Below, piece after piece: positions 23,518-51,502 of a DNA stretch of 56,270 nucleotides (the first letter of the stretch is position 1; each line of letters opens with the position of its first letter). A program made the translations under genes and the position numbers. Under the pieces are notes generated by a model that was given only the letters and a program-made list of their open reading frames with translations, had not been told where the DNA came from and searched no databases. The DNA is taken from positions 1 to 56,270 of the IMG/VR virus record IMGVR_UViG_3300035698_010116. One strand, given 5' to 3'. The stretch is from a virus.

Positions 23518-26001
23518 ATGCCACTGGACAATGTTCAGATTGAGTATCTTGACAGGCTCCACGAGCTTCCGCTTGAAAAACAGCGGGAGATATTGGCTGT
23601 TTGTAATAAACTCGAAGCCGCTCATCAACGGTGCGATGCCAAAGATAGTTTTATTGCTTTTGTCAAGCAGGTCTGGCCCGGCTTTATCGAGGGTTATCAT
23701 CACAAGATCATGGCCGAGGCCTTCGAAAGGGTCATGCGCGGCGAGCTGAAACGGCTCATCATCAACATGGCCCCGCGCCATACGAAATCCGAATTCGCGT
23801 CCCATCTCTTCCCCGCTTGGTTCATGGGGCACCATCCTAAGAAATACATCGTTCAGGCGTCCAACACCTCTGATCTGGCGGTGGACTTCGGACGCAAGGT
23901 GCGCGATACCATCGGCGATGAGGCCTATCGCAAGGTCTTCCCCAATGTCGCCGTACATGCTGACGCTGCCGCAGCAGGTAAGTGGAAGACGACGGCCAAG
24001 GGCGAGTACTTCGCCATCGGCGTCGGCGGCACGCTGACGGGCCGTGGCGGCGATCTGATCATCATCGATGATCCTCATGCTCTCGCCGTTGATACGCCGA
24101 TAGCCACGACAAGGGGTTGGAAAACAATTGAGACTGTGGCCGTCGGTGACTACGTTTTTGGGCGTAGTGGCAAACCGACACGGGTCACTGCCAAGTCCGA
24201 GGTGCAGCATGGCCGGACGCTGTACGAAGTTCAGACAAATGATGGTGCGGTCATCGAGTGCGATGGTGGGCATCTCTGGAACCACCGGGTAGGAACCAAC
24301 TTGAAACTTGGTTTCACGAACACGACCGCGCGGGAGTTGGCCCATTGGAATAAATCCAGTAAACCTTGCATGCCCCGCCATCATCCGGTCCAGTACCCGG
24401 CGCAGGATTTGTTGATCCATCCTTGGGTCTTAGGTGCTTGGCTTGGTGACGGCACCGCGAGCAACGCCAAGATGACCGCGCATCCGGTTGACGCGATCTA
24501 CATGCGCAAGCAGTTTAAGCGGTGGGGTTATGCGACGACAGATCAAGCGGATAGATTTAATTTCGGTGTCTTGGGTCTGTGGACGCAGCTTCGTGCGTCA
24601 GGGCTTTTAGATAACAAGCACATCCCCGTTGAGTACATGTTGGGTAGCCTTGATCAGCGGTTGTCTTTGTTGCAGGGGCTTATGGACACAGATGGCGAAG
24701 TTTCCAAAGCCGGGCAGTGTGTGTTCCACAATAAGGATGAGGCCCTTGTGCGTCAGGTCGTGGAACTTCTGTGGTCTTTGGGAAAGAAGGTTCAGTTACG
24801 ATCTTATTGGTGCGATGGATACAAAGGAGCCTGTTGGATGCACCGGGTTTGTTTTAAAATGAAACAAGCCGCGAAGATGCCCCGAAAAAGAGAGCGCGCG
24901 TATACACCTACAGATAAGATGAGCCGCAGCTTCACGGTTACAAAAACAGGTCGTAGAGGTAGCGTGCAATGCATCACGGTTGCGCGAAAGGATGGCCTAT
25001 TTCTTGTTGGTCGTGAATACGTGGTGACTCATAATTCTGAGCAGGAGGCCAAGCAGGCCGAAACCAAGCCCGAGATTTATGACAACGTGTTTGAGTGGTA
25101 CACCTCCGGCCCGCGCCAGCGCGTGCAGCCCGGCGCGGCCATCGTGATTGTCATGACGCGCTGGTCGAAGCGGGACCTGACCGGGCGCGTGCTCAAGGAG
25201 GCGAAACTCAGGGAGCTGGGCGAGGACTGGGAGGTCATCGAGCTTCCCGCTATCTTGCCGTCGGACAAGCCGATCTGGCCTGAGTTCTGGCCCGAGGATG
25301 AAATCCGGGCCATTAAGGCAGAGTTGCCGGTGGCCAAGTGGATGGCGCAGTACCAGCAACAGCCGACGGCTGAAGAGGGCGCGCTGGTCAAGCGTGAGTG
25401 GTGGAAGCGCTGGGAACACAAAGAACCGCCGGCGGTGGAGTTTGTCATTCAGAGCTGGGACACGGCCTTCGAGAAGACGCAGCGTGCGGATTATTCGGCG
25501 TGCACGACCTGGGGTGTGTTTTACCGGGAGCACGAGGACACCGGTAAACTGTTGCCGAACATCATTTTGTTGGATGCTTTTCGCAAGCGCATGGAGTTTC
25601 CGGAACTGAAGAAGAAGGCTTACGAATTGTGGGCAGATTGGGAGCCGGAGGCCTTCATTGTTGAGAAGCGGGCCAGTGGTGCACCCCTTATTCAGGAGAT
25701 TAGGGCGACAGGCATCCCGGTGAGTGAATTTACACCTTCGCGCGGAAATGATAAGATCGCGCGCGTCAATGCCGTGTCCGACTTGTTTTCTTCCGGGGTT
25801 GTATGGGCTCCGGAACACAAGTGGGCCGATGAGGTGATTGAGGAATTTGCGGAATTTCCTGCTGGTGAGCACGACGATTACGTCGATAGCTCGACACTGG
25901 CACTGCGACGGTATCGTGAGGGCGGTTTCATTAAGACGCCGCAGGACGAAGAGGAAGATGATCGTGAAGTCCTTCCGGCGAAATCCTACGAGTATTATTA
26001 G
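23518..26001 (+). CDS. terL: terminase large subunit with in-frame intein
   Basis: The ATP-driven packaging motor and headful nuclease. The precursor is 827 residues. The spliced product would be 508 residues, typical for Terminase_6-type proteins. The ATPase has a Walker-A-like MAPRHTKSE (84-92) and the Walker B LIIIDD ending at D184-D185. The intein interrupts right after DDPH187, and the extein resumes with SEQEAK, restoring the common DDPHSEQEAK. The nuclease domain shows SWDTAF, FIVEKRASG and GEHDDYVDS with the expected acidic residues. Without splicing the motor would be dead, so splicing gates DNA packaging. Confidence 0.95.
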   Translation: MPLDNVQIEYLDRLHELPLEKQREILAVCNKLEAAHQRCDAKDSFIAFVKQVWPGFIEGYHHKIMAEAFERVMRGELKRLIINMAPRHTKSEFASHLFPAWFMGHHPKKYIVQASNTSDLAVDFGRKVRDTIGDEAYRKVFPNVAVHADAAAAGKWKTTAKGEYFAIGVGGTLTGRGGDLIIIDDPHALAVDTPIATTRGWKTIETVAVGDYVFGRSGKPTRVTAKSEVQHGRTLYEVQTNDGAVIECDGGHLWNHRVGTNLKLGFTNTTARELAHWNKSSKPCMPRHHPVQYPAQDLLIHPWVLGAWLGDGTASNAKMTAHPVDAIYMRKQFKRWGYATTDQADRFNFGVLGLWTQLRASGLLDNKHIPVEYMLGSLDQRLSLLQGLMDTDGEVSKAGQCVFHNKDEALVRQVVELLWSLGKKVQLRSYWCDGYKGACWMHRVCFKMKQAAKMPRKRERAYTPTDKMSRSFTVTKTGRRGSVQCITVARKDGLFLVGREYVVTHNSEQEAKQAETKPEIYDNVFEWYTSGPRQRVQPGAAIVIVMTRWSKRDLTGRVLKEAKLRELGEDWEVIELPAILPSDKPIWPEFWPEDEIRAIKAELPVAKWMAQYQQQPTAEEGALVKREWWKRWEHKEPPAVEFVIQSWDTAFEKTQRADYSACTTWGVFYREHEDTGKLLPNIILLDAFRKRMEFPELKKKAYELWADWEPEAFIVEKRASGAPLIQEIRATGIPVSEFTPSRGNDKIARVNAVSDLFSSGVVWAPEHKWADEVIEEFAEFPAGEHDDYVDSSTLALRRYREGGFIKTPQDEEEDDREVLPAKSYEYY
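24079..25035 (+). other. class 3 intein with LAGLIDADG homing endonuclease in terL
   Basis: 319 residues from Ala1 to Asn319, with Ser as the +1 extein residue. Block A is ALAVDTPIATTRGW, with Ala instead of Cys/Ser at position 1. Block B has H65-L-W67, block F has C298 (VQCITV) and block G ends T317-H318-N319. W (B:12), C (F:4) and T (G:5) are the signature of class 3 inteins, in which the block F Cys starts the reaction. The endonuclease has both dodecapeptides: LGAWLGDG (D124) and LQGLMDTDG (D205). All key residues are present, so splicing and homing both look functional. Confidence 0.93.
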
Positions 26002-26010
26002 GGGGCGGGT

Positions 26011-28683
26011 ATGGCGGTGAACGTGGACAAGCGGCTGGAGCCGTCGGACATCTTGGTTGAAGAGGGGGAATCGGTTGATGTGGAAATCCCCGGTGAGGAC
26101 CTTGATTTTGAGTTGATGAGCGAAGAGGAACAGGAAGACGGCAGTGTCGTTGTCGACTTTGATCCACAGGAGGATGTGGACGCCGACGCCGAGGAGCACG
26201 ACGCTAATCTGGCGCTGGCCCTTGACGATGCTGAGTTGATAAAGTTGGCCACGGACTTGATCGAGGATTTCGACAACGACAAGAAAACCCGCGAGCCGTG
26301 GGAGAAAGCGTATACGCAAGGGTTGGCCCTGTTGGGGCTTAACATCGAGAAAAGAACGCAGCCGTGGGCGGGTGCTTCCGGTGTCTTTCATCCGATCCTG
26401 ACGGAGGCCGTGGTCAAGTATCAGGCCGACGCCATGATGGAGACTTTTCCGGCGGCGGGGCCGGTACTGACCAAGATCGTCGGTAAGGAGACCCCCGAGA
26501 TCGAGAAGCAGTCCAAGCGGGTGCGTCACGATATGAATTATCAGTGCACCGAGGTCATGCCCGAATACCGCAACGAGCATGAACAGGCACTGCTTCACCA
26601 GGGGATCGCCGGGTCCGTCTTCAAGAAGGTTTATTTCAGCCCGGCGCTTAATCGGTATACCTCCCAGTTCATCATGGCCGACGATCTTGTGGTGGCGTAT
26701 GGCACGACCAACCTGACGGCGTGCAATCGCGTGACCCACATGATGAAGGAATTTCCCAACGACCTCCGTAAGGCACAGTTATCCGGACAATACAGGGACA
26801 TTGACGTTCCCAAGCCCGTGATCATGTACACCAAAGTCGATAAGGCCGAGGACAAGGCGGCGGGCGACGCGCCGATGGCGGAGTTCGATGACCGGCACCT
26901 GTTGCTCGAAGTGCACGTGGTGCTGGATTTACCCGGTTTTGAGGATGTCGACGAGGAGGGCGAAAAAACAGGGTTGTCGCTGCCGTATATCGTCACTATC
27001 GAGAAATCAAGTCGGCTCGTGTTGGCAGTCTACAGGAATTGGGACGAGGACGATTCCGGCAAGACGAAAAACGAGTACTTTGTTCACTATCCCTTCATGC
27101 CGGGTCTTGGTTTTTACGGTATCGGGCTGGTTCATCTTCTTGGAGGCATTGCCAAGTCTTCGACCTCCATTCTGCGGCAGTTGATCGATGCCGGAACGCT
27201 GGCTAACCTGCCTGCCGGGTTGAAGTCGCGGGGTCTGCGTATAAAAGGCGATAATTCGCCCCTCCGGCCTGGAGAATTCCGGGATGTCGACGTTCCGGGT
27301 GGCGCGATCAAGGACAATATCTCGTTTGTGCCGTACAAGGAGCCTTCTTCGGTGCTCTATCAGCTCTTGGGGAGCATCACCGAGGAAGGGCGCAATGTCG
27401 CCAGCATTGCGGGTCTCAAAATCTCCGATATGAATGCTCAAGCACCCGTGGGCACGACCTTGGCGTTGCTGGAACGCGGCATGAAGGTGATGTCGGGGGT
27501 CAACGCCCGCACGCACGCGGCCATGAAGGTTGAATTTAAGTTGTTGGCGGTGCTGGTGCGTGATCACGCCCCACCGGATTATGAATACGAGGTGGCCGAG
27601 GGAGCCACGCGCGCCAAGGATTATGATGATCGCGTAGACGTGGTGCCCGTGTCGAACCCGAATGCTTCGACAATGGCGCATCGCATCATGCGTTTTCAGG
27701 CGATTCATCAGTTAGCACAGACGGCACCGCACATTTATGATCAAAAGCTCCTGCACAGGGGTATGATCTCAGCAATGGGCGAAGATAACGCCGAAAAGCT
27801 CATCCCGATGGATGAGGACATGAAACCGATGGACCCCGTGGCCGAAAACATGGCCCTTTTGACCGGGAAGCCGGTCAAGGCACACCTGTATCAGGATCAC
27901 AAGAGCCACATTCAGGTCCACTTGGCGGCGGCGCAGGACCCTAAAATACTCGAAATCATGGGTCAAACGCCCGCCGCCAAGGCGATTGCCGCAGCAGCGG
28001 CGGCACATGTGCAGGAGCACGTGGCCTTCGAATATCGCCGGGAGATAGAGAAGCAGCTTGGGGTTCCGATGCCCGAATTCGACGCTAATCTTCCCGCCGA
28101 GACCGAGGTCACCCTGTCGAAATTGATAGCCGACGCCGCCGACAAGCTCCTCAAGAAGGATCAGGCCGAGATGCAGGCGCAGAAGAACGCCGAGGCCCAG
28201 AACGATCCGGTAATTCAGTTGCAGAAGGCAGATGCCCAGACCAAGGCGGCGGAAGTCAAGCGCAAGGGTGTGGCCGACAGGCTCCGTGCGGCGCTGGGTA
28301 AGGAACAGATCGCCTCCAAGGAGAAGCTGGAGGGCAACAAGGCCGGGCGTGAAGTTCAGCAGGATCTGTTGGACAAGCAGATTGAGTTGAAGCGGCTTGA
28401 AGTTGAGCTGGCGCGCATTCGGTCTCAGGAGAAGATCGCGGGGGCGCAATTGGGCGTCAATGTGTCGCAAGGGGTGGTCGACGACCAGATCGAACGTGAA
28501 CGCATTGCAGCCCAGAGCGAGCAGGCGGAGCTGCGTGAAGGGGTCAACCTGAAGCGTAACGACGAAGCGGCGGAAGCCGAGAAAGAGCGTCTGAAGAACG
28601 AGCGCATCCGTGATCAGCAGAACACGACCCAACGGTTTATGGGCATGTTCAAGTCGAAGTCAAAAAAGGAAGATGGCGATTAA
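26011..28683 (+). CDS. portal protein
   Basis: An 890-residue portal forming the packaging vertex. It follows the terminase by 9 nt. The N-terminal ~100 residues are very acidic. The core reads WEKAYTQGLALLGL...TQPWAGASGVFHPILTEAVVKYQADAM, typical for large podoviral (P22-like/HMO-like) portals, with the wing and stem region through IAGLKISDMNAQAPVGTTLALLERG. The last ~220 residues are a long charged, Gln/Ala-rich coiled coil, matching the barrel found in P22-type portals. Confidence 0.87.
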   Translation: MAVNVDKRLEPSDILVEEGESVDVEIPGEDLDFELMSEEEQEDGSVVVDFDPQEDVDADAEEHDANLALALDDAELIKLATDLIEDFDNDKKTREPWEKAYTQGLALLGLNIEKRTQPWAGASGVFHPILTEAVVKYQADAMMETFPAAGPVLTKIVGKETPEIEKQSKRVRHDMNYQCTEVMPEYRNEHEQALLHQGIAGSVFKKVYFSPALNRYTSQFIMADDLVVAYGTTNLTACNRVTHMMKEFPNDLRKAQLSGQYRDIDVPKPVIMYTKVDKAEDKAAGDAPMAEFDDRHLLLEVHVVLDLPGFEDVDEEGEKTGLSLPYIVTIEKSSRLVLAVYRNWDEDDSGKTKNEYFVHYPFMPGLGFYGIGLVHLLGGIAKSSTSILRQLIDAGTLANLPAGLKSRGLRIKGDNSPLRPGEFRDVDVPGGAIKDNISFVPYKEPSSVLYQLLGSITEEGRNVASIAGLKISDMNAQAPVGTTLALLERGMKVMSGVNARTHAAMKVEFKLLAVLVRDHAPPDYEYEVAEGATRAKDYDDRVDVVPVSNPNASTMAHRIMRFQAIHQLAQTAPHIYDQKLLHRGMISAMGEDNAEKLIPMDEDMKPMDPVAENMALLTGKPVKAHLYQDHKSHIQVHLAAAQDPKILEIMGQTPAAKAIAAAAAAHVQEHVAFEYRREIEKQLGVPMPEFDANLPAETEVTLSKLIADAADKLLKKDQAEMQAQKNAEAQNDPVIQLQKADAQTKAAEVKRKGVADRLRAALGKEQIASKEKLEGNKAGREVQQDLLDKQIELKRLEVELARIRSQEKIAGAQLGVNVSQGVVDDQIERERIAAQSEQAELREGVNLKRNDEAAEAEKERLKNERIRDQQNTTQRFMGMFKSKSKKEDGD

Positions 28684-48414: not shown

Positions 48415-49401
48415 ATGGGTAAGGGTAGTTCGAAAACCGCTCCCGCGCCGACGACCTCGACGGTCACGCAGACCAATTTGCCCGACTACGCCGAGCCGTT
48501 CTTCACCGGCTTGCTGAAACGGGCGGAAGACGCCAGCCTGACCGGGTACACCCCGTATGAAGGTCAGCGCATGGCCGGGTTCGGCGAGGACACCACGGCG
48601 GGCTTCGATGCCATCCGCAATCAGGCGCAGGCAGGAACGCCCGCCGCGTTCACCAATGCCGAGGGTGCGCTGACCGGCGTGGCCAATGCCGACCCGCTGG
48701 CCCAGCAGGGCCAGTTCGATCCGATGGCGTCCTACACGGACCCCGGCGTGGCCCAGCAATACATGAACCCGTACATCACCAACGTGCTGGACGCCCAGCG
48801 CGGCAGGTTCAACCAGAATTTCGATGAACAGCAGCAGGCGCGTGACGCCCGCTCAGTGCAGGCCGGGTCCTTCGGCGGCGACCGCCGCTTCGTCAACGAC
48901 CAGATCGCCAACCGCGAACGCAACATGCAGCTCAACGAGATGGACGCGCAGGGGATGGCGGCGGCGTACCAGTCGGGTGCCGATATCTTCGGCCAAGAGC
49001 AGGGCATGGAGATGCAGAACCGTGGCCTGAACTCGCAGGTCTTCGCCGGAAACCGCCAAGGTGTCCTCGATCAGCAGCAGAACCGCATGGGGGCATCGGA
49101 GCGCCTGCTGTCGCAAGGGATCGCAAGCGACGACATGGCCTTCAATCGTGGCAAGACGCTGGCCGGTATCGGCGGCGCATACGACGAACAAACTCAAACC
49201 GGGCTGGATGTTGGGTATAGCGACTTCATGAACCAAAGGGACTTCGACAGGAACCAGTTGAACTTCTATAGCGGTATCCTGCGCGGCGTCCCGATCTCTC
49301 CGCAGCAGGAGACCACGCAGGTCAATGCACCGCCGAGCCAGATGAGCCAGTTGCTGGGTCTGGGCGTCGGTGGATTGGGTCTGGCAAAAGCACTGGGGTA
49401 A
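48415..49401 (+). CDS. internal virion protein, Gln/Asn/Met-rich
   Basis: A 328-residue protein with the recurrent sequence type of podoviral ejection proteins: YAEPFFTGLLKRAEDAS, YMNPYITNVLDAQRG, ARSVQAGSFGGDRRFVN, then repeated helices rich in Gln, Asn and Met, and a hydrophobic end (LLGLGVGGLGLAKALG). It would leave the capsid with DNA and help form the channel. A good ribosome binding site (TAGGAGTAAGG) precedes it. Confidence 0.8.
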   Translation: MGKGSSKTAPAPTTSTVTQTNLPDYAEPFFTGLLKRAEDASLTGYTPYEGQRMAGFGEDTTAGFDAIRNQAQAGTPAAFTNAEGALTGVANADPLAQQGQFDPMASYTDPGVAQQYMNPYITNVLDAQRGRFNQNFDEQQQARDARSVQAGSFGGDRRFVNDQIANRERNMQLNEMDAQGMAAAYQSGADIFGQEQGMEMQNRGLNSQVFAGNRQGVLDQQQNRMGASERLLSQGIASDDMAFNRGKTLAGIGGAYDEQTQTGLDVGYSDFMNQRDFDRNQLNFYSGILRGVPISPQQETTQVNAPPSQMSQLLGLGVGGLGLAKALG

Positions 49402-49405
49402 GACC

Positions 49406-51502
49406 ATGAACATCATTCAGCAGCAGGAAGCTCTGAAGGACCTGAGTGATCAGCAGATCGCCAAGGAGATGCAGCAGCCCTCCGGGCAGATGCCGCTGTT
49501 TCTGGTCTCGTCCGAAGCCAAGCGCCGGTCTGATCTGCGCCAACGGTACAAGGCTGAACAGACCGAGCCGCCACAGACTACCGTGCAAGAAGACCTGCTC
49601 CGCAGTATCATGAACCAGCAGATGGCACCGACGGGCATCGGTGCAGCCGTAGGGCAGGCACCCTCGCCGCAGGCGCGTCCGCAGCCGCAGATGCCCGCCG
49701 TGCCGCAAACGCAACCTGCGCAGGGTATCATGGCGGGCAGCACTCCAGGTATGCCGGGCGCTTTGCAGCCACCACAGGCTTTTGCGGCAGGTGGCATCGT
49801 GCGAGGGTTTGCCGCAGGAGGGAGGCCGACGTTTCAAGACAGCGATTGGCGCAGGGACAGCCTTAATGAACTGCTCGGGCGCATGTTACGAGCGCGGGGC
49901 AGCGGTGTCGGTTATGACCCGACCACACATGTAGGCCCCAAAAGCGACTACAAGCTGTGGAATACCCAAAGGGCCCTTGGTAATGACCCCACAAGTGGTG
50001 GTCTCCGAAAAGATCCTTACGGTTCAGGAGAATTCAAGGGCCTACAAAGCCTCAACGCGGTCGAAGAGACGGTACCGGGTGATCCGCGCGCGCGCGCGCG
50101 CCCAATGTCGCAAATGTCCTTTGAAGAGTTTGACCAGGGCCCGCCGCCTGATTCGCTTATGGTAGGTTATGAAAACGCCTTAAAAAATGCCGAGGCACAC
50201 TTTGGCCAGGAGTTTCCCGAGACCGGGTACAACACGGCAGGCATTCCAACGATGGGTATTTTGTCTGGAGGTGTCCCCGGCCTACCCGCTGACGCCCTCG
50301 CAAATGTTCAGTATAAGTCTCCTGGAGCCTATGCACCGGGCGCACTACCCGCTGCGGCAAAAGTGGACTTCCAAACGGGCGCTGATGTAAATGCCTTGCG
50401 TGCGGCAGAAAAGACCCGTTTATTGGCGGCTGACGCGGGCCACTTCAGTCAGCGGGAAAAACGCTTGGCCGGGCGTGAAGCTGACCTCGCTAAAGACACC
50501 GAGCGCGATCCCTGGATGGCTTTGGCCGAAGCCGGTTTTGCCGCTGCTGGCGGGACCAGCCAAGACGCCATGACCAACATCGCGGGTGGTGCACAGCAAG
50601 GTATTGAGGCGTTAATCGCCAGCAAGGCAAGCCGCGAAGAGCGCGGTGACAAACTCTTCGACGCCCGGACGGCCTTGGAAGACGCACAAGAGGCCCGTAA
50701 TACAAAGCTGGACGCGCTGGCAGATCGCCACGCAAAAGGGGAACTCGATCAGCAGACGCTAGAGAACCAGAAGCGGCAGATCAATGCCGAGTACGCCATA
50801 AAGGTCTACGAAGTTCAAGAACGTGGCAAGGTGGCGGGACACGAAGCCTCTGTCCGGGACGCCCGAGGCTCCTTCGACGCCAGCATCCACAACGCGGGTA
50901 ACAAGTTGGTGCTGGCCAAGAGCGTACTCGACACCCAAATCCGGGACCGTCAAATGCAGCTCCAAGGCCTGCGTGACAAGTACACTAACGACAGGGACAA
51001 CTGGACGGCCATTGATGATCGCGAACGCGCCGACGCCGAACGCGAAATGAAGATCTTTGGTATGGAGCAGACGCGACTTGATAACGAGGCTACCCGCTTC
51101 CAAAAACTCATCTCCGAACGCACCAAGGAAACGGGAGCCACTGCGCGCGCCAACATCGCAGCCAATGCAGAACCCGCCGCCGTGAAGACCGCACGGGCGT
51201 ACATGGAAGACCCGGAAATCGCCGCCGCCCTGACCGCAATTGCCGGTGCGGGGAAAGTGCCGCAACTCAGTAAACAAATTGATAAGAAATGGGAGACAGC
51301 GTTAAAGGCCTACACCGAAGAGGGTATGCCGATAGCGCAGGAAGACCGCCAGAAAATCGTGGACAACTTCGTGGCGGGTATGTCGGGCACCCTTACCGAT
51401 CCTGCTATTATCCGGGCCATCGCAGATAAACTTGCCGTATCTGCTTGGGGGGCCGCACAAGGCCAAGGCAATATTGTAGACGGTAAATACGTTCCAAAAT
51501 AA
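49406..51502 (+). CDS. large internal virion protein, coiled coil
   Basis: A 698-residue protein starting 4 nt after the preceding stop; a longer in-frame start lies inside the upstream gene and was rejected. Residues 1-120 are Gln/Pro-rich; FAAGGIVRGFAAGGRPTFQDS resembles other ejection proteins. A long helical/coiled region covers ~350-600 (EAQEARNTKLDALADRHAKGELDQQTLENQKRQ in part). A (GC)n tract at about 50084-50101 codes for an Arg-Ala alternation. It probably works with the neighbouring internal proteins. Confidence 0.8.
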   Translation: MNIIQQQEALKDLSDQQIAKEMQQPSGQMPLFLVSSEAKRRSDLRQRYKAEQTEPPQTTVQEDLLRSIMNQQMAPTGIGAAVGQAPSPQARPQPQMPAVPQTQPAQGIMAGSTPGMPGALQPPQAFAAGGIVRGFAAGGRPTFQDSDWRRDSLNELLGRMLRARGSGVGYDPTTHVGPKSDYKLWNTQRALGNDPTSGGLRKDPYGSGEFKGLQSLNAVEETVPGDPRARARPMSQMSFEEFDQGPPPDSLMVGYENALKNAEAHFGQEFPETGYNTAGIPTMGILSGGVPGLPADALANVQYKSPGAYAPGALPAAAKVDFQTGADVNALRAAEKTRLLAADAGHFSQREKRLAGREADLAKDTERDPWMALAEAGFAAAGGTSQDAMTNIAGGAQQGIEALIASKASREERGDKLFDARTALEDAQEARNTKLDALADRHAKGELDQQTLENQKRQINAEYAIKVYEVQERGKVAGHEASVRDARGSFDASIHNAGNKLVLAKSVLDTQIRDRQMQLQGLRDKYTNDRDNWTAIDDRERADAEREMKIFGMEQTRLDNEATRFQKLISERTKETGATARANIAANAEPAAVKTARAYMEDPEIAAALTAIAGAGKVPQLSKQIDKKWETALKAYTEEGMPIAQEDRQKIVDNFVAGMSGTLTDPAIIRAIADKLAVSAWGAAQGQGNIVDGKYVPK

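Follow-up and report, generated by a model that had tools for sequence, protein, structure and literature searches.

A probable class 3 intein containing a LAGLIDADG homing endonuclease just past the Walker B motif of a tailed-phage large terminase

The stretch of DNA analysed here (the window, positions 1-56270 of IMG/VR record IMGVR_UViG_3300035698_010116) is a linear viral record in which no tRNA genes were found. Genes for an exonuclease, DNA polymerase, helicase and primase precede the large terminase gene (terL), and the portal and head genes follow it; some large ORFs, for example 49370-51502 (710 aa), have no PHROG or Pfam family match. The terL reading frame stays open across the whole of a large insert (Table 1), and the flanking exteins are large terminase by their matches to the TIGR01630 and PF17289 families. 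A long antisense ORF (24997-26739 on the minus strand, 580 aa) covers the terL end and the first part of the portal gene, and is probably a by-product of codon usage.

Table 1. Features of the terL gene and its insert (^ marks an insertion point)
Feature	Position	Strand	Remarks
Large terminase (TerL) precursor ORF	23518..26001	+	827 aa, intein in frame; PF17289 1.7e-9, TIGR01630 4.5e-17
N-extein, ATPase domain as far as Walker B IIIDDPH	23518..24078	+
Walker B motif LIIIDD	24055..24072	+	intein begins two residues past it (DDPH^S); from the sequence
Class 3 intein, 319 aa, A1 ... THN	24079..25035	+
Ala1 codon, without N-terminal nucleophile	24079..24081	+	A1 in 22/22 non-redundant DDPH-site members
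Block B, His65 (B:10) and Trp67 (B:12)	24271..24279	+
LAGLIDADG homing endonuclease domain, limits approximate	24400..24894	+	PF14528, structure model
LAGLIDADG motif 1, LGAWLGDGT	24430..24456	+
LAGLIDADG motif 2, LQGLMDTDG	24670..24696	+
Cys298 codon, block F:4, presumed first nucleophile	24970..24972	+
Block G, Thr317-His318-Asn319	25027..25035	+
Ser+1 codon, putative second branch-point nucleophile	25036..25038	+
C-extein, remaining ATPase and RNase H-like nuclease	25036..25998	+
P-loop site APRH^TKSEF, empty here	23781..23782	+	class 3 inteins there in relatives
C-motif site VM^TRW, empty here	25155..25156	+	class 1 inteins there in relatives

The ends of the insert are secure, as the preliminary description had held from the extein join, because the intein-free TerLs of two phages, 023Pt_psg01 (IIDDPH^SEQDA) and Pelagibacter phage HTVC027P (IIDDPH^TEQDA), align without a gap over the join. 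Translation of the insert also confirms the numbering given there for Ala1, His65, Trp67, Cys298, Thr317 and the Thr-His-Asn before Ser+1. With its P-loop and C-motif sites empty, the window terL has this as its sole intein.

Class 1 inteins begin with a nucleophilic Cys, Ser or Thr, and this one begins with Ala. Class 3 inteins do not require such a residue and usually lack it; they are recognized by Trp at B:12, Cys at F:4 and Thr at G:5, which here are W67, C298 and T317. In MchDnaB1 the Cys-His-Thr triad that makes up the class 3 active site consists of Cys124, His65 and Thr143, with Trp67 belonging to the WCT motif (PMC7664689), and His65 and Trp67 bear identical numbers in published class 3 inteins (PMC5222942). 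The triad alone is no proof of function, since a class 1 intein onto which it was grafted hardly spliced (PMC7664689).

Sequence and structure comparisons point to the same class. In a phmmer search of the PDB the intein matched 6bs8 (2e-17), 6rix (6e-17) and 6riy (3e-16), all class 3 DnaB inteins, and the best class 1 match stood at 0.0027 (gp41-1 entries at 0.0027 and 0.064; 6riz is a triad-grafted variant of the class 1 intein gp41-1). The nearest solved relatives are thus M. smegmatis DnaBi1 (6BS8) and M. chimaera DnaB1 (6RIX). An AlphaFold model built on 38 aligned sequences (mean pLDDT 94.4, pTM 0.92) is predicted to comprise a HINT domain and a LAGLIDADG endonuclease. Over its whole length this model matches PI-SceI and other intein endonucleases in the PDB, and for the splicing domain 6bs8 (TM 0.83) and 6riy (TM 0.81, on target) come ahead of every class 1 mini-intein.

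To see how specific these residues are we gathered loci resembling the window intein from phages, bacterial genomes and viral contigs, with class 1 helicase inteins added as comparators; chosen in this way they give biased frequencies rather than population frequencies, and the class 1 set is small (n=14). Cys at F:4 was seen in 166 non-redundant inteins, of which Trp at B:12 is found in 162 and Thr at G:5 also in 162. Of these 166 inteins, 127 begin with Ala and the others with P, R, C, G, M, E, S, K, L, D, V or Q; in one TerL clade the first residue is A, R, C or P while W and C stay unchanged, as would be the case for a position 1 without a catalytic role. Each of the 14 class 1 comparators starts with Cys and has Leu rather than Trp at B:12; Cys at F:4 occurs in none of them, yet 13 share Thr at G:5. 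In these sequences the discriminating residues are therefore W at B:12 and Cys at F:4. Of the triad first put forward as class 3 evidence, W67 and C298 carry the weight, whereas the Thr of T-H-N was ruled out as a diagnostic mark.

A tree of the splicing blocks had been proposed as a check on this reading, and we built trees from about 120 splicing-block columns after removing the diagnostic ones. In a short quick tree the window intein joins the class 3 references at 95 (SH-aLRT) and is split from the class 1 helicase inteins at 99. The class 3/class 1 split has support 95/97 with a single long class 1 row misplaced across it, and when four long rows are left out class 1 forms one clade at 96/95. 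At supports of 95-99 the intein thus falls on the class 3 side, separate from the class 1 inteins, although on these ~120 columns an AU test does not formally reject a tree joining it to class 1 (p 0.18-0.27). The triad is complete and position 1 is no nucleophile; taking this together with the nearest relatives, the structure match and the trees, we agree with the preliminary description and consider the insert to be a class 3 intein that contains a LAGLIDADG homing endonuclease and lies in the ATPase domain of a tailed-phage TerL, with a probability of about 0.9.

By analogy with the class 3 pathway (PMC5222942, PMC4031507), we infer that this intein splices in the following order. Cys298, positioned together with His65 and Thr317 and with Trp67 packed against it, would attack the His(-1)-Ala1 bond to form a branched thioester at block F, and the N-extein would then be transferred to Ser+1. 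Cyclisation of Asn319, aided by His318, would follow, and conversion of the ester to a peptide bond would restore DDPHSEQEAK in the Walker B region. Because the insert adjoins Walker B, we would not expect proper ATP hydrolysis from a TerL that has not spliced.

We think it very improbable that the insert is instead a class 1 intein without Cys1, a non-splicing remnant that leaves the phage terminase broken. Position 1 is indeed not a nucleophile, and one decayed class 3 relative, Arsp-FB24, is known (PMC3196547), but the residues of blocks A, B, F and G are all intact here, and the frame is open through an essential gene. Cys at F:4 and Trp at B:12 moreover occur together throughout the family, Ala1 and the full triad are present in 22 of 22 non-redundant members at DDPH^S, and the eight members tested are under purifying selection (below). 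Even less credible is a class 2-like route, in which Ser+1 would attack the N-terminal junction directly without Cys298. An Ala start is found in class 2 inteins as well, but the known ones are KlbA orthologues that combine it with Cys+1, Ser at G:6 and a required Asp at F:4 (PMC4031507), whereas the window intein differs at these last three places (Ser+1, His at G:6, Cys at F:4).

The endonuclease domain has the two dodecapeptide motifs with acidic residues that define LAGLIDADG homing inteins (LGAWLGDG and LQGLMDTDG), together with a PF14528 match (9.2e-7) and the PI-SceI fold. Both motifs are kept throughout the family, in agreement with the earlier claim, as far as sequence can tell, that the endonuclease is intact. 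The enzyme is expected to cut intein-free terL alleles at DDPH^S, after which the intein would be copied in. Among eight DDPH^S members, non-synonymous difference in the splicing and endonuclease domains is 0.11-0.41 per site, far under the synonymous 0.70-0.97, where saturation of synonymous sites rules out dN/dS as a figure. This purifying selection in the two domains is consistent with splicing domain and endonuclease both being functional.

It is unlikely, though less so than the two alternatives above, that the splicing part works while the endonuclease does not, leaving the intein to vertical inheritance alone. About equal identities of intein (58%) and extein (58-60%) between the window and its nearest first-set relative, L018, favour that view; the kept catalytic motifs and the purifying selection on the endonuclease region argue against it. 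So do the inteins of L019-L023, which are 67-77% identical while their exteins are mostly 44-69% identical (lower where the L019 ORF is cut short); inteins more alike than most of their exteins fit recent homing.

The DDPH^S site is occupied in 46 sequences, some from contigs that were fetched twice, and these reduce to 22 non-redundant sequences at 92%, the window included, all with A1-W-C-T and Ser+1; chance is excluded by so many sequences sharing both site and residues. In the viral, phage and bacterial collections searched, DDPH^S inteins were met solely in uncultivated viral contigs. The best match in the phage collection is that of mycobacteriophage Gaia (36.9% over the full length), and the best in the bacterial genomes reaches 40%, both at other sites. 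Full-length trees make the DDPH family one clade within the TerL class 3 inteins (99/96 and 100/99), and these did not bear out the short quick tree, in which the window intein was closer to the P-loop inteins of the R1 group than to its own site family. In the full-length trees the R1 P-loop inteins are the sister of the DDPH family (99/97 with 33 rows, 94/81 with 48 rows), so the family is probably sister to class 3 P-loop inteins of the same TerL family. Those inteins (PPRH^TKSEF; L024, L026, L027 and others) resemble the window intein in host protein and in their intact W and C, with ~40-50% identity, but lie ~100 residues upstream and vary at position 1 (A, R, C, P).

This relationship suggests, but does not prove, that an intein has shifted between sites within the terL gene. 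The tree favours P-loop inteins paraphyletic to DDPH (94/81), but P-loop monophyly survives an AU test (p 0.19); if the P-loop were the older site, the move would have covered ~100 codons within one gene. Tentatively, the DDPH^S family may have come from a class 3 intein moving from P-loop to Walker B, in a clade whose position 1 drifts freely (A, R, P), even to Cys beside an intact WCT, with natural inteins that could perhaps use either class 1 or class 3 entry; we regard this as possible rather than likely. DNA likeness of the two insertion sites was discarded as a trace of the move, since across 29 related TerLs it is 0.39 against a background of 0.26, is mostly unremarkable in single cases and can be explained by shared codons. 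Recent duplication within one gene was also discarded, the two class 3 inteins in L234 and in L241 being only 43% and 40% identical, respectively.

Relatives of this TerL hold inteins at four sites, so that within one host protein family class 3 inteins occupy two of these and class 1 inteins the other two. Those at the P-loop (PPRH^TKS) and DDPH^S are class 3; those at the C-motif (VM^TRW) are class 1, with Cys1 and Asp at F:4; and the one at GADL^C, just ahead of Walker B (L039), has Cys1 and is class 1 by that residue. Some TerLs have two inteins (L234, L241, L030, L032, L233, L235, L246, L252, L258 and L039), either two of class 3, as in L234 and L241 with P-loop and Walker B sites both filled, or one of class 3 and a Cys1 intein at VM^TRW or GADL^C. 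TerLs with two inteins were already known from cyanophage Mic1 (PMC7156551) and a crAss-like phage (PMC7886860).

Three P-loop TerL inteins (L003, L024 and L025) have the full W-C-T triad and yet Cys at position 1; the three group together, next to relatives at this site that begin with Pro or Ala, and L003 and L025 also lack the penultimate His (CTLN, CTMN). In Lactococcus-type phages, PhoH inteins at one site are 81% identical but start with Cys (L192/L199) or with Ala (L201), which by sequence is a natural switch at position 1; both kinds have Cys at F:4 and THN, but Ile at B:12. The TerL class 3 relatives with A, R, P or Cys as first residue are natural pairs for asking when position 1 matters. 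A 2020 survey left out Cys1 inteins by definition (PMC7891396), and Cys1 inteins of class 3 type would therefore be missed by it. We also note another viral class 3 intein family (L005-L011 and L086), at a terminase-like P-loop (SRQIGK^TT), in which L005-L011 are nearly identical across several contigs.

Two expectations of the preliminary description find no support in the literature. One is the rarity of class 3 inteins, of which 1701 were counted in 2020, 82.5% of them with LAGLIDADG motifs (PMC7891396). The other is that a terminase intein with full triad and endonuclease would be a clean new case: class 3 TerL1-c, -d and -e were reported in 2016, with splicing shown for Bethlehem TerL1-c and Gaia TerL1-e, DNA cleavage for TerL1-c, and TerL1-e assigned to Walker B (PMC5050341). 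The window intein was thus read correctly, though inteins of its kind were already known. What is new is modest and consists in full-length class 3 inteins forming a family at DDPH^S, a Walker B site for which we found no description in the literature consulted.

The founding class 3 inteins, Bethlehem DnaB and Catera Gp206, lie in other host genes and, according to the literature, share the class 3 signature; C1-cluster mycobacteriophage inteins of presumed Catera type are 33-35% identical to the window intein. M. smegmatis DnaBi1 and M. chimaera DnaB1 share with it A1, His65, Trp67, the block F Cys and THN, but are mini-inteins without endonuclease in DnaB helicase. Mycobacteriophage Gaia gp2 TerL1-e (L014) is, like the window intein, a class 3 intein of LAGLIDADG type with A1, WCT, THN and Ser+1 at Walker B of TerL, and it spliced in a reporter. 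The two differ in TerL type, are 36.9% identical, and the Gaia insertion (ILNE^S) directly follows the Walker B acid, which by motif position puts it two residues ahead of DDPH^S in the window.
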